The translations under genes were made by a program, and so were the position numbers. A stretch of DNA of 64,000 nt from Alitta virens (lineage: Eukaryota > Annelida > Polychaeta > Phyllodocida > Nereididae): positions 38,903,995 through 38,967,994 of the forward strand of contig OW028581.1 of the NCBI GenBank assembly GCA_932294295.1. Direction: 5' to 3'. The notes under the pieces were generated by a model. The model had not been told where the DNA came from. It worked only from the letters and a program-made list of their open reading frames with translations, and did no database searches. This document shows, in pieces, positions 49,236 to 63,794 of the stretch; the first letter of the stretch is position 1, and every line of letters starts with the position of its first letter.

Positions 49236-49655
49236 ATTATTCTGTCTGTTTGTCTGTCGGTCTGTCTGTCTAGCTGACTGGTTGTCTATCTGTCTGTTTG
49301 TCTAGCTGGCTGGCTAGCTGTCTGTCTGTCTGTTTGTCTAGCTGGCTGGCTAGCTGTCTGTCTGTCTGTTTGTCTAGCTGGCTGGCTAGCTGTCTGTCTG
49401 TCTGTTTGTCTAGCTGGCTGGCTAGCTGTCTGTCTGTCTGTTTGTCTAGCTGGCTGGCTAGCTGTCTGTCTGTCTGTTTGTCTAGCTGGCTGGCTAGCTG
49501 TCTGTCTGTCTGTTTGTCTAGCTGGCTGGCTAGCTGTCTGTCTGTCTGTTTGTCTAGCATGCTGGCTAGCTGTCTGTCTGTCTGTTTGTCTAGCTGGCTG
49601 GCTAGCTGTCTGTCTGTCTGTCTGTTTATCTAGCTGGTTGGCTGTCTGTCTCTGC
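49236..49655. repeat. 36-bp minisatellite (about nine units) with TCTG core
   Basis: The unit is gtctagctggctggctagct followed by gtctgtctgtctgttt. From 49298 to 49633 the units are almost identical, with one cat variant at 49558. Because 36 is divisible by 3 and the unit lacks stops, both strands are open through the array (a 12-residue peptide period). There is no evidence that it is translated. Confidence 0.95.
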
Positions 49656-55380: not shown

Positions 55381-56380
55381 CAGTGGCAGAGAGGGGACAT
55401 GGGAATTTTTTTTAATGAAATAATATCTCGTTCTAACGACTTAGTATCTCATTTTAACGAGATAGTATCTAGTTCTAACGAGATATAATCTCGTTCTAGC
55501 AAGATAACATTCTGGACGTTGTAGCTCGGGAACCAGAACACTGCATAACTGAGTGTATTATCTCGTTTGGACAAGATAGTTTTTCGTTGGGACAAGATAG
55601 TTTTTCGTTGGCACAAGATAGTTTTTCGTTGGGACAAGATAGTTTTTCGTTGGGACAAGATAGTTTTTCGTTGGCACAAGATAGTTTTTCGTTGGCACAA
55701 GATAGTTTTTCGTTTGGACAAGATAGTTTTTCGTTTAGACAAGATAGTTTTTCGTTGGGACAAGATAGTTTTTCGTTGGCACAAGATAGTTTTTCGTTGG
55801 CACAAGATAGTTTTTCGTTGGGACAAGATAGTTTTTCGTTTGGACAAGATAGTTTTTCGTTGGGACAAGATAGTTTTTCGTTGGCACAAGATAGTTTTTC
55901 GTTTGGACAAGATAGTTTTTCGTTGGCACAAGATAGTTTTTCGTTGGGACAAGATAGTTTTTCGTTTGGACAAGATAGTTTTTCGTTTGGACAAGATAGT
56001 TTTTCGTTTGGACAAGATAGTTTTTCGTTGGGACAAGATAGTTTTTCGTTTGGACAAGATAGTTTTTCGTTGGCACAAGATATAGTTTTTCGTTGGGACA
56101 AGATAGTTTTTCGTTTGGACAAGATAGTTTTTCGTTTGGACAAGATAGTTTTTCGTTGGGACAAGATAGTTTTTCGTTGGCACAAGATAGTTTTTCGTTG
56201 GGACAAGATAGTTTTTCGTTTGGACAAGATAGTTTTTCGTTGGGACAAGATAGTTTTTCGTTGGCACAAGATAGTTTTTCGTTTAGACAAGATAGTTTTT
56301 CGTTGGCACAAGATAGTTTTTCGTTTGGACAAGATAGTTTTTCGTTTGGACAAGATAGTTTTGTCCCCTCCCAGCCACCG
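55381..56380. mobile_element. 1000-bp TIR-bounded element carrying a satellite
   Basis: The left end reads CAGTGGCAGAGAGGGGACA and the right end, complemented, CGGTGGCTGGGAGGGGACA (16 of 19 identical). Between them lie four palindromic 21-bp-type units (55422-55508), a unique 45-bp spacer and the 21-bp array. A CAGTGGC start is common among hAT-type elements (family knowledge), but no 8-bp target duplication is visible, so the class stays open. No transposase is encoded. Confidence 0.65.
55564..56361. repeat. 21-bp satellite array, about 38 units
   Basis: The unit acaagatagtttttcgtt plus a 3-base variable end repeats with little other change. The variable position takes four forms (ttggg, ttggc, tttgg, tttag before acaag). 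One unit at about 56078-56086 has a 2-bp insertion (gatatag). All reading frames stay open because the unit is a multiple of three and lacks stops in every register, giving long meaningless frames on both strands. Confidence 0.97.
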
Positions 56381-57935: not shown

Positions 57936-58660
57936 TGTCATCAAATAATCTAATTCCATGTAATTGTGTAAAGCTTTAAGATTTCAACAACTTATAAATG
58001 ATCATTGATGGAACACTGGACATTGTAATTAGCTATGACCACGAACTTTAATTAAATGCAACATTAACGGAACAGTATAAAGAACTTTAATGGTTTTCAC
58101 AGGGTGTGTCATGCGCCAAAACAGGATCAACAAACTGATGCTGTTCAGTTGTCAGATACATGCAGAAAAGATGATCACCTCCCTGGGGGCTGGAATCGGA
58201 GGACTGCTTGAATTTCATGCAGAAAGACAAATCAAAGATGAAGACAAATGAGGAGAAACAGTGCGCAGATATCACTGCAGAGAATTTCATGAAACACGAT
58301 ATAGTTTGCAAGTGAACGGAATGTGCAACACATGCCAAGTCAAGGGAAGTTTCTCAGGGTCCTGGGGCAATTGGGCAAAGCACAAAAGAACTTGCCTCAA
58401 CTTCCCTGGAACTGAAACAACTGGTTTAGGGCCATGAGATGGATATAGAAGAGAATCAGGGAGCCAGGGATTCTAGAGACTAGGTGGGGGTGGGAATGTC
58501 GTGAATATAGTGTAATGCGCCTATGATCCTGAAGGTAAATAATGAAAAAAGCATGATAAGCTTGGAATACATTTCATATTGAATGTCATTGAATTTTTTG
58601 CCCTGCAGCCTACACATACATTCACATGTCCTGAAAAATAATAATTCTACTACTTTTCTA
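57936..58660. other. Unassigned spacer
   Basis: A minus-strand frame at 58087-58338 has a cysteine-rich and phenylalanine-rich composition but no recognisable domain. No other feature. Confidence 0.45.
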
Positions 58661-59130
58661 TGCTTACCACTGCACTCTAAATAATTTGGACGCCTGACGC
58701 GTAATAACATGTTCATTTCTTGCACATCCATGTTCTCCCAGATGTTCCCTTCATGAACACATGTTGTTCTAAAATTTTGTTAACAAATTGAGTGTTCCAT
58801 TCTAGAACTTCAGTGTTCTAGGTAGTGTTCATAAACTGAACACTGTGTGTTGTGAGGTGTTCGGATCTAAGGATGCGTTCATGTTATGAACACTACTGTT
58901 CGGCATTTGCACACCTAGTGTTTATTGCTGTTCAGCAATTGTTCATCCCTATCAATTAAGTGTCTACAAGATGTCCTTAACACTTGGTAGGCCGAAGTAT
59001 TTAAGGGTAAGGGGGGTGGCAAGAGGGTTACTCCCTAATATCCTAATTACCCCTCAATCATAATGACATGGACCAGTCCTAAAACAATTTGGTGCCAAAG
59101 ACCAGTGACCTGATTCCACTCTTAAGTTAG

Positions 59131-59166
59131 ATGACCTGTCTGGCAGTGCAACAAAGTCCTCCAGTG
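59131..59166 (+). CDS. Possible first coding exon of the transposon-borne gene
   Basis: ATG followed by eleven sense codons (MTCLAVQQSPPV) ends at a good donor, cagtg followed by gtaagt at 59167. It ends in phase 0, matching the phase of the next exon at 59801. An in-frame TAG lies directly before the ATG. The phase match has a one-in-three chance of being accidental and the exon is short, so this is a weak proposal. Confidence 0.3.
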
Positions 59167-59800
59167 GTAAGTTTTAATCCCTATTTGTTAAAGACATTCT
59201 ATGATTACATAAGCTGTTAATTCTTTTAAAGGAATTGAATATTCTTTAATTGTAGTTTCTTTGCATTTTGAAGGATACATGGGAGTTATCAATTAGTAGT
59301 AGTAATTGCATGTTCTTATATAACACATTCTTGGTTTGGATGTAAAGGGCTTTTTCTTCCAAGTTCAGAGTCATGTTCTAGTTAATTTTAAGGCAAGAAT
59401 CAATTGGTTCATTGGTGAAGAAGTGCAATATGTAACTATTTTGTTACTTTATGATAACTGCAAAATAAATAAGTCATGGTATATTTTTTTCGACAAAATG
59501 TAATTTAGAGTGGATTAACCAGAGAACAAAACAAATGGAGAATTTTACACCCAGACATGCACTTGTAGTGATGACCTCATTATAGGTCACCATTTATCCC
59601 CAAGGAGGGGTGGGGGTGGAAGGGTGAAGATGGTCAGATGCACCCCAGAAATGGCTATTTAGATACAACATATATATGACAAACTATTAATATTTTAAAT
59701 ATGACACTTTGTTTGCACAAAATATTCAAGGATTAAGTATTTTCAGCTAATTACACATTGACATATTATTATGATTATGTTGCATTTTCACTCTTTGCAG

Positions 59801-60493
59801 ATTTTGTATGAATTTTCATTGATGGTTGGACATGAACGGGTGACCAAGTTTGCCAACAATTTGAAAAAGCTTTGCGCAGCTGTGGAGACCCTGACCGAAG
59901 CAACACCGGTAAATTCCAAAATAACCCATAGTAGCTGAAATTACTAAACATTATCTAGCCTTACTGCTAAGATGTAAAGTTTTTCTTTTAAATACAGATC
60001 TCACATGGGTAAACGGCATGGACTGTTTCACTGTCTTAAATTTGTTATATTTTATGTTTTTGTCTGTAGGGTCCCTTTCGCATGATGCCTGTACTACAAC
60101 ATATTGAGAAGGAAACCTGTTTTGACAGAAGTTCAGGCAAAGGGAAGAAGCAGAAGACAGAGAGCATTCTCAAGGTGTACAAGGTAATCTATGCATGACA
60201 TTTTAAAAAATACAGCTGATCTTGCAGTGTACAATTACACTAGAAAAGGCAATCTGCATACATCGGTGTACTGAAGGTCTGACCTAATATATATTCACAC
60301 TTCTTATAAAATATCAAAAATTAGCTGTAACCTGTAGCTTAATGATTAGGTGATGTTGATGATATTGATATATCTAACAGTCTTTCTATTGATATTTTTG
60401 CAGGGAGTCCCGGATGAACATATCGAGGAGAAGTTGAAGAGTCAGGAGGGAACACCTCGCCATATTGCTGCATTCCAGTCTGACAGGGAGTAA
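59801..60493 (+). CDS. Multi-exon gene, unrecognised protein (3' part)
   Basis: Three exons: 59801-59908 (36 codons, beginning ILYEFSLMVGHERV), 60070-60183 (38 codons, beginning GPFRMMPVLQHIEK) and 60404-60493 (29 codons plus TAA, beginning GVPDEHIEEKLKSQ). Acceptors are ctctttgcag, tttgtctgtag and atatttttgcag; donors are gtaaat and gtaatc. Every junction is phase 0, and introns of 161 and 220 bp contain stops. The protein is charged, with a Lys-rich segment (SGKGKKQKTES) in the middle. I do not recognise the family. The gene lies wholly inside the 2.8-kb element, so it may be an element protein or a captured host gene. Confidence 0.6.
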
Positions 60494-60649
60494 CTGACTG
60501 GAATCTACCCAAGGCAGTATTCCATGCTGATGGGCCTCTTTCAAATCCATGTGATGGAGGAGCCATACAGGCGTGAAAAAACTAAAAAATTAAATTTCTT
60601 CAATCAGAAATTACAAAATGCGCTGAGGTCTCTTCCAGATCCCAAATAA
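60494..60649 (+). pseudogene. Open continuation beyond the TAA
   Basis: After the TAA at 60491-60493 the same frame stays open for 51 codons (starting LTGIYPRQYSMLMGLFQIHV) to a TAA at 60647-60649. The residue mix looks like protein and includes a basic stretch (YRREKTKKLN). This fits an older, longer C-terminus cut by a nonsense mutation, or stop-codon readthrough; an untranslated 3' end open by chance is also possible. Confidence 0.4.
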
Positions 60650-61471
60650 TTTTTTTTTTATTATTGTTGGGGGACCCATCAGCTGTCAAATGCTGTCATT
60701 GGCAATATCTTAAAATGGTTTGAAATATTATCTTCATATCTTCATGATGCATTAGTTATTATTGTACAAAAATACTACCTTATAAAAATGTTATTTCTAT
60801 TTCACCTCCCTGTAGTATTAATACATACTGTATAAGCTAATTTACAGGTTAATATGTCACATGATTAAATTGACGTTTTCGCAGTTCAAATATTTATGTA
60901 ACACTATGGTCTAAGGCTGAATATTAAACATGTTAAAGCTATGTCATTTTATAAGTTTTCATTATCGGAAAATGAGGTATAAATACTGTTTTATTTTCCT
61001 CACTATTTAGGAAGACTAAAGGAGATTGCCTTATAAGTATGTTCTACTTCTAATATTATTAATATATTTTCAGGCTGGCTATTATGAAATGGTGATGCTG
61101 CCTTAACTCCAGGATGGCTCAGTGATGACGTACGGCTGCAGCTCTGCAGAACACCTAGTGTTCAAGAAACGCCTTATGAACATGTATTCGGTGTTCATTA
61201 TCTGTTACAGGCGTCTGCAGCATCCATGGTGTTCATATGTAAAACACCTCAGAACACATTTTACATGTTCTATAATCATGAACACTGCTGTTCTAAGCAT
61301 GAACACTAGTGTTCTGAGCCATCCTCTAAATATTAAACACTGGTGTTCCCTACAATAACACTGGTGCTGATGAACTTTTAAGAACACCTGTGATGCGTTC
61401 ATTATATGTTACAGAAAAGGTGTTCAAATAAGTGTTCCATCTCTGAACACTGGTTTTTAGAGTGTGCTTAC

Positions 61472-63794
61472 TAGGATGACAAGACCAGCTATCTAAGCAG
61501 TCTCATGATCTCTGACACTAAACCAAAGAAGCATGATAGAACACAACAAAATCTATCATAAAAGAGGTAATTTGGATGGTAGCTAACAGCCCAGTGTGAA
61601 CGCCATAAATAGCCTAGATTTCCTCATTTCATTGGTTGACATGCGACATGAGTATATACTCTCACTCTGTGCCTCGCATTAATCTCTTGGTATCCATGGT
61701 GATACTTGGTAGCCATGGTGATACTGATATTAAAAGGAGGCAGAGGGGTACCTGACAGCGAGGCTCGAGCAGATGGGCCTGTCCTGTCATAAAATGACAT
61801 TTTGCGACAATCAACGATTTCTGACCGACCTAGTTGAACCCGTGCACCGGGCAGACCCCAGTCAGGGTGACTGGGCCCCAAAGTAAAAGGGATCAAGCCT
61901 TGATGACCTAGATTGATGAGTGACGTGACCTAGATTCCCGACTGACACCTCATTAGTCTTTTGGAAATCTTCTGTCCTGGAGGTAGAGTTCTGTCCATCA
62001 GGGCATGTGACAACCCCAACTTCCGGTCTGTAAGAAAGTCGTCTGAGGGTGTTTACGAAGGCTTTATTCTTCCATAAGGCTATCATGTCATACATGTGTG
62101 TGCTAAAGTTTAAAATGCTTTATATAATATGGCAATATGAGTGAACCATATATATGTCTCTATTTTTCACGTTTGGTTCTTCATACCCTGGGTACCCGAA
62201 AGAGCCGCCCAAGGGTCTTTAGGCCCTTCACGTGACATTTTTATGATGAACTTTTGACCTCGGAATGACTTATATTGACGGAAATGCCAGTTGGCAAATA
62301 AGAAAGGGGCCGATGATGATTGTTATGGCCCCAGTGCGTGCATAAAGACATTAAGAACTGGACGTATGGGACGATATGGCTGCATTAAATGCTTCTGTTT
62401 TCCTATTTGCTCATTGTTGATCATTGCTGATCATGATGAGATATGACTTCGATATTTCCATGACTTTATGTAAGACCACGTGACTCCTCAGCGCATTAAT
62501 AGGCCATGACGCATGAAAATAGCAGTAAATGTTTTCAAGACCCACTATTCCCAGACAGATATGAATGGTGATGTTTATGAGTGCAAATACACATGACTTT
62601 ACTGCGTGTTTCTTAACAGCATGATTTACATGGCTTGGACAATGATTTTCCATCTGCGTTGGCCCTTAAGCATTCACGATTTGTGTATTTCATAATTAAT
62701 GCATGATACATGAATCCAAGTTCACCCTTTATGGTAATCTTATTAATAACTATTCTCTCAAAAGAGTCCAAACATCTGCCAGCTTCAGAAGATAATAGTC
62801 AGAAATACCCAGTTACATTTTTTATGTTCTCCTTTTGATTAGATTTACCCTATAATGTGAACTCTTGTATTAGTGCCAAAGTATCTGATTGTAAGTAAAT
62901 GATATATATGTCAACAATTTAGGACGGTGTAAATATTGGAATTATCTGGCTGCACAAAAAAAAAAATCCCTCAGCTATTAACAATCCTATGGCGACAATA
63001 TCCTTCTGACCTCCAAGAGCAGTGCATGACTGTTACATGTTATGCTTGTCTCAATTGAGGGGGTGTTCACAGGGTCACGAGGTCAGGGTTTATCCGATCA
63101 TCTCATTGGTGAAGTACCCTACAAATGGCGATCATATAGCATAGTACCCCAATGCCAAATGGGACAAATGGACGCGTGTCTGATCTACTGATCAATCAAG
63201 GGGGCTAAGTGTCCCCCAGGGTGAATTAATAGGGCTGTCCCAATGTATGAAACCGTTTCGCCCTGATTGAATGCATTAGATGCATGCATATACACTAGCG
63301 GCTGCAGTGAGTAAACCTTGTGTATAGAGATAGATCCTGCAGTGAACCCTACTGAGCAATTGGTGCCGACCAGGGACCTTCTAAAGCATTCCAGGGGTCC
63401 TTCTGCTCACTGTGGATCCATGGGTACTCACCGGGGACTCATACGCGACTCACAAGGGTTCAATGCCAATCAATGCTAGGATTTCGCCGTCTTTAGCGAT
63501 CAGGAAAGGTGTTCAGCAGAGCGAAAGACCCAGCCCAGTGCCTCCCTTTGTGCCCAATATGGGCAGGGGCTACGGCTGGATAGGACGATGGAAGGGCTCG
63601 AGTCTTGGCCATTCTGCTACAACCACGTGGGCCAAGGTAATTCGCGAGAGGTCCCTGCCAATTGAAGTAATGGCGGCCAATTGCTGGCTGCTTTGTGCTC
63701 CATGCATTCTGTTATGGGCTGTGCTAAATGCCTTGGGCTGATAACCAGTCATCCCCGCACAAAGACATAAGCAAACCCTATGAGTGGCTCCACT
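61472..63794. other. Unassigned sequence
   Basis: A 19-bp near-duplicate, cttggta(t/g)ccatggtgata, lies at 61686-61723. Minus-strand frames at 61624-62095 and a plus-strand frame at 63412-63741 are less AT-rich but lack domains and splice partners. Nothing is called. Confidence 0.45.

Follow-up and report, generated by a model that had tools for sequence, protein, structure and literature searches.

The element at positions 58673–61464 (+ strand; 2792 bp) is probably a decayed and non-autonomous member of a cut-and-paste transposon family, one whose mode of action resembles that of CACTA/EnSpm and which is most likely part of the wider CMCT clade (animal TRC-like). It lies in the 64,000-nucleotide stretch of DNA analysed here (the window; C9:38903995–38967994 of a 671,116,069-base genome assembly, i.e. 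671 Mb in 23 contigs). From its size and introns the genome is probably that of an animal. CAC..GTG tips, 2-bp target duplications and subterminal arrays together agree with a CACTA/EnSpm-related (CMCT) element that is non-autonomous and was mobilised in trans. The transposase, whether encoded at another locus or since lost, would have cut at the tips and inserted the element with a stagger of 2 bp; the subterminal words would have been bound by a transposon protein; and the exons inside the element may be what internal deletion has left of the genes of a longer parental element. The initial annotation had proposed an element of CACTA/EnSpm type, with arrays near its ends and without a recognisable transposase, and this is still the best reading of some 30 copies that share their ends and differ in their middles. 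Nothing found requires the undescribed system that the annotation had also suggested.

A genome search for copies had been set beforehand as a test of the proposal, and its outcome agreed with it: the family comprises about 30 copies that have both ends in common, carry different middles and show 2-bp duplications at most insertions. Using window positions 58600–61530 as query, we obtained at least 131 matching genome segments, counting the element's own, from 38 candidates. The right 391 bp matched at 33 places, again including that in the window; two copies count as two places each in this search, being split by an insertion as judged from position and flanks. The window and 33 fetched stretches (L041–L073) were aligned, giving 34 rows. 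The aligned copies start with CACTCTAAATAATTTGG and end with CACTGGTTTTTAGAGTG, with few substitutions, and their common start and end define the element. The right edge at 61464 had been placed correctly. The left edge had been set at 58668; the copies begin at 58673, and CACTG (58668–58672) is therefore flank.

As had been noted, the ends are oppositely oriented: the 9-bp terminal inverted repeat CACTCTAAA occupies 58673–58681 (+) on the left and 61456–61464 (−) on the right. A third copy of CACTCTAAA lies inside the element at 59504–59512 (−); 0.86 occurrences are expected by chance in the window. On its own, the 9-mer has no genome-wide enrichment (7402 matches vs 8800 for the reversed control). 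The tip is CACTC, or CACTG in one copy, and the aligned copies have CAC..GTG tips.

Among the right ends the mean difference was 2.6% (19 rows). The tree of these 19 rows was star-like, with one of 16 inner branches well supported and a bootstrap that had not settled. This low divergence and the star-like tree fit a burst in which the passengers would have been multiplied by a transposase acting in trans. Eight copies (L059, L060, L064–L071) represent a single insertion. They have near-identical flanks, occur in both orientations and sit on C3 around 43.77 and 49.2–49.7 Mb and on C7 at 22.86 Mb; given these flanks, the host region itself has been duplicated. The window also contains two tandem arrays, at 55563–56362 (21-bp unit, 38 copies, 94% matches) and at 49251–49651 (36-bp unit, 11 copies, 94% matches).

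To count target duplications, we used the 21 of 34 rows that keep both tips; the other 13 (truncated, masked, split or with one end unmatched) were excluded. L059, L060 and L064–L067 have common flanks and were counted as one insertion, which reduced the 21 rows to 16 independent insertions. An exact 2-bp duplication was present in 13 of the 16, and a match of 3 bp or more in none. Other offsets up to 6 bp gave a match in only zero to four insertions, and the probability of at least 13 2-bp matches in 16 is ≈ 3 × 10−13 given the base composition. The duplicated dinucleotides in the 13 clear cases were TA (four), TG (four), CA (three), CG (one) and TT (one). The three insertions lacking the match were L050 (TA/AT), L056 (TA/CA) and the L059 group (CA/TG). 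In the window, the two duplication copies are TG at 58671–58672 and TG at 61465–61466.

The 7-bp word TGCTTAC, found at 58661–58667 (+) and again at 61465–61471, had been taken to abut both ends in the manner of a target duplication. It is parted from the left tip by CACTG, and none of the 16 insertions has a direct repeat of more than 2 bp next to its tips; the window duplication is TG/TG. When joined with a single TG, the window flanks read TGCTTACCAC-TGCTTACTAG; most simply, TGCTTAC would have been present twice in the target, 10 bp apart, before insertion. An empty site at this locus would be expected to have one TG and to read TGCTTACCACTGCTTAC. A striking flanking word of this kind calls for caution: comparison with further copies showed that this one is not the target duplication.

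The subterminal arrays extend over 58710–58944 on the left (14 TGTTC/GAACA words) and 61149–61449 on the right (16 words). Expected numbers, derived from the rest of the window, were 0.64 for 58673–58964 and 0.78 for 61109–61464, and the maximum per 320-bp stretch elsewhere (about 1–58600) was six. About 15 GTGTTC/GAACAC words per end had been reported; the figure holds for the 5-mer and not for the strict 6-mer, which occurs seven times in the left end and 13 times in the right. Counted by column majority across the copies, the left 292 bp hold 14 words (20 rows) and the right 356 bp hold 17 (19 rows). Left words were less variable than their spacers (0.040 vs 0.055; five of 292 circular shifts as low); right words did not differ significantly from theirs (0.011 vs 0.015; 75 of 356 shifts as low). 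Plant TNPA is described as recognising subterminal repeats (PMC2613891), and by analogy with it we infer that a transposon protein may have bound the words found here.

The small gene reported within the element was only partly confirmed. Its phase-0 exons do form a single frame across e2 (59801–59908, +), e3 (60070–60183, +) and the start of e4 from 60404. In the window copy, e4 is broken: the remnant (60404–60649, +) contains a stop at 60491–60493 and, relative to other copies, lacks 102 nt near 60506–60509. Comparison with L041 revealed 4-bp microhomology at this deletion, and 10 of 15 exon-4 rows have a gap, an insert or a stop. A possible first exon, kept in many copies, may run from an ATG to the splice donor GTAAGT at 59167 (59131–59166, +), its coding status being uncertain. 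The nonsynonymous/synonymous ratio among copies was 1.00 for e2 (14 rows), 4.33 for e3 (14 rows) and 3.10 for e4 (15 rows), compared with 2.38, 2.86 and 2.70, respectively, expected without selection. These values hint at constraint in e2 alone; e3 and e4, two of the three tested exons, drift with no sign of constraint.

No homologue was found for the 103-aa reading that ends at the stop. Extended past the stop (written as X) to 155 aa, the reading matched seven metagenome proteins, most of which have a longer last exon. An alignment-based search yielded 13 proteins at E up to 1: the same seven (P0001–P0007), P0009 (85% over half), P0008, P0010 and P0011 (60, 46 and 44% identity), and P0012 and P0013, whose E values of 0.05 and 0.09 are not significant. 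Neither the window gene nor its relatives scored above a Pfam cut-off, and no exon-4 relatives were found in viral_contigs, genome_contigs or plasmids. Against solved structures there was a single weak hit (9k9w, E 0.0016), in which no individual stretch passed, and the predicted structure of the gene product was poor (mean pLDDT 58). The exon-4 domain may resemble fish SAMD3-like proteins, a likeness not used as evidence. Of the 46 matches to the exon-4 protein within the genome, 30 were close (76–100% identity; several of these are parts of a single copy) and the other 16 distant (24–41%). One distant relative lies in a duplicated region present at C4:1915500–1925499 and C4:3429742–3439741 (L074 and L075; 99.9% identical over 5.5 kb); because the region is near-identical, the matches at C4:1921607 and C4:3435849 yield no element boundaries.

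Deletions, a replaced segment and nested insertions distinguish the middles of the copies. In seven copies (L050, L051, L053, L055–L057 and L059), window sequence is replaced by a related segment of 416–699 bp. That of L059 contains a short open reading frame with a C2H2-like pattern that falls below every Pfam cut-off, the query being approximate at two residues. The finger exon may resemble the starts of EnSpm transposases, which we likewise did not use as evidence; the literature on these likenesses yielded one paper, apparently unrelated. L058 has an additional exon whose splicing to e2 would preserve the frame. The 4.7-kb insert in L045 (C3:50742403–50751442) has an open reading frame of 448 codons with a DDE_Tnp_4 domain (E 8.2 × 10−31) and is, on this predicted domain, a nested Harbinger-type element; a second insert in L045 has an open reading frame of 183 aa. 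Two copies on C3 contain an insert of ≈ 9 kb (between L068 and L069 and between L070 and L071), at whose edges the matches overlap by 11 bp. The insert might hold a transposase, although this overlap suggests a nested insertion.

Among 18 translated segments, with up to four open reading frames listed for each, the only transposase identified was the nested Harbinger in L045, and no DDE transposase of the CMCT clade was seen. The longest frame listed outside L045 was 105 aa. An autonomous partner was sought in the genome with the right-end DNA, which recovered the same family only, and with the alternative middle, for which 15 of 17 matches lay in known copies and two were short (60 and 35 bp). 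A genome search for Transposase_21 (PF02992) gave no matches; exons were searched singly and no control matched, so this result is uninformative.

How did the exons come to be in the element? They could be captured pieces of a host gene, carried by the same kind of transposon as a Pack-type passenger rather than as a native second gene. The 16 distant relatives of the last exon, additional to the 30 close stretches, would suit such an origin, as would the drift of e3 and e4 and the lack of a transposase-sized open reading frame in three 10-kb stretches around distant relatives (L074–L076; longest 164 aa). Nevertheless, most copies contain the same gene remnant, further in-phase exons or a finger-like reading frame occur elsewhere in the family, the pattern that deletions in a native gene set would leave, and no single-copy host progenitor was identified. 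We consider capture possible, though rather unlikely. A bolder proposal, in our opinion a doubtful one, sees in the broken gene the remains of an undescribed family of accessory proteins that bind subterminal GTGTTC words in animal CACTA-like transposons, as a counterpart of plant TNPA. The family also links to CACTA-like elements a small domain that Pfam does not name and that is multi-copy in this genome and present in metagenome sequence.

It is quite unlikely that the copies are non-autonomous members of another superfamily with 2-bp duplications, such as a relative of Mirage, ESTA or ISL2EU/PHIS. Mirage follows a TA target rule. Only four of the 13 clear duplications were TA, the dinucleotide with which ESTA and PHISTA are described, and arrays of short subterminal words are presented as typical of CACTA elements (PMC2613891). 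Such an assignment would nonetheless agree with the account of TA-specific lineages that also have 2-bp duplications (PMC12730594) and with the finding of no deciding transposase in the element family.

Profile searches with the KDZ transposase (PF18758) gave 61 genome matches, all over the cut-off and several with stops; Kyakuja/Dileera/Zisupton-type elements are present in this genome. The TGCTTAC word suggested a KDZ (Kyakuja), Dada or hAT7 type of element with a 7-bp duplication, and the 61 matches, the 7-bp duplications described for Kyakuja and hAT7, the former with CA..TG ends (PMC12730594), and the 6- to 7-bp duplications described for Dada within small RNA genes (PMC3706591) would accord with this, but all three are refuted by the length of the duplication (2 bp, none of 16 longer) and no tRNA or Rfam match was found in the 64,000-nt window, which makes this origin extremely improbable.

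The CACTA-like reading, then, has in its favor the common boundaries of the copies, the 2-bp duplications, the arrays at two ends, the burst-like right ends and the microhomology of the e4 deletion. Against it stand the lack of a linking transposase, a CACTC tip that is neither CACTA nor the CCC of TRC, right-end words that are not significantly better conserved than spacers and three duplication mismatches in 16. Superfamily membership is not proven, as no transposase links the family to one; we hold more firmly that the element works like CACTA than that it is CACTA.

Most CMCT transposons (EnSpm, Mirage, Chapaev, Transib and kin) are described with CA..TG tips and 2- to 5-bp duplications (PMC12730594). 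The element shares both features, with CAC..GTG in the aligned copies and 2 bp in 13 of 16 insertions. Defective deletion derivatives, in plants for example dSpm, are a further feature in common with plant CACTA/En-Spm, and no homologue of plant tnpA or tnpD was shown in the element. Descriptions of the plant elements also include CACT tips, arrays of subterminal words in two orientations and a second spliced gene, as here (PMC2613891, PMC4158355), whereas their tip is CACTA, not CACTC (CACTG in one copy), and their duplication 3 bp, a length matched in 0 of 16 insertions (PMC4158355). Animal TRC elements are reported with 2-bp target duplications (PMC1636069, PMC4298943), found for SmTRC1 in seven of 14 copies (PMC1636069). 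SmTRC1 and its kin, placed in the CACTA superfamily, resemble the element in this and in having inverted terminal repeats, introns, and truncated as well as longer copies (PMC1636069). They differ from it in a CCC tip and inverted repeats of 10–54 bp, compared with CAC and the 9-bp CACTCTAAA, and they encode Transposase_21, for which our search of this genome, uninformative by its control, gave none (PMC1636069). Kyakuja shares the CA..TG ends, yet is described with 7-bp duplications and no inverted repeats (PMC12730594), whereas the element has a 9-bp inverted repeat and duplicates 2 bp. The copies look like a new family of a known transposon kind, with which the CACTA-related transposons outside plants gain a family making 2-bp duplications.
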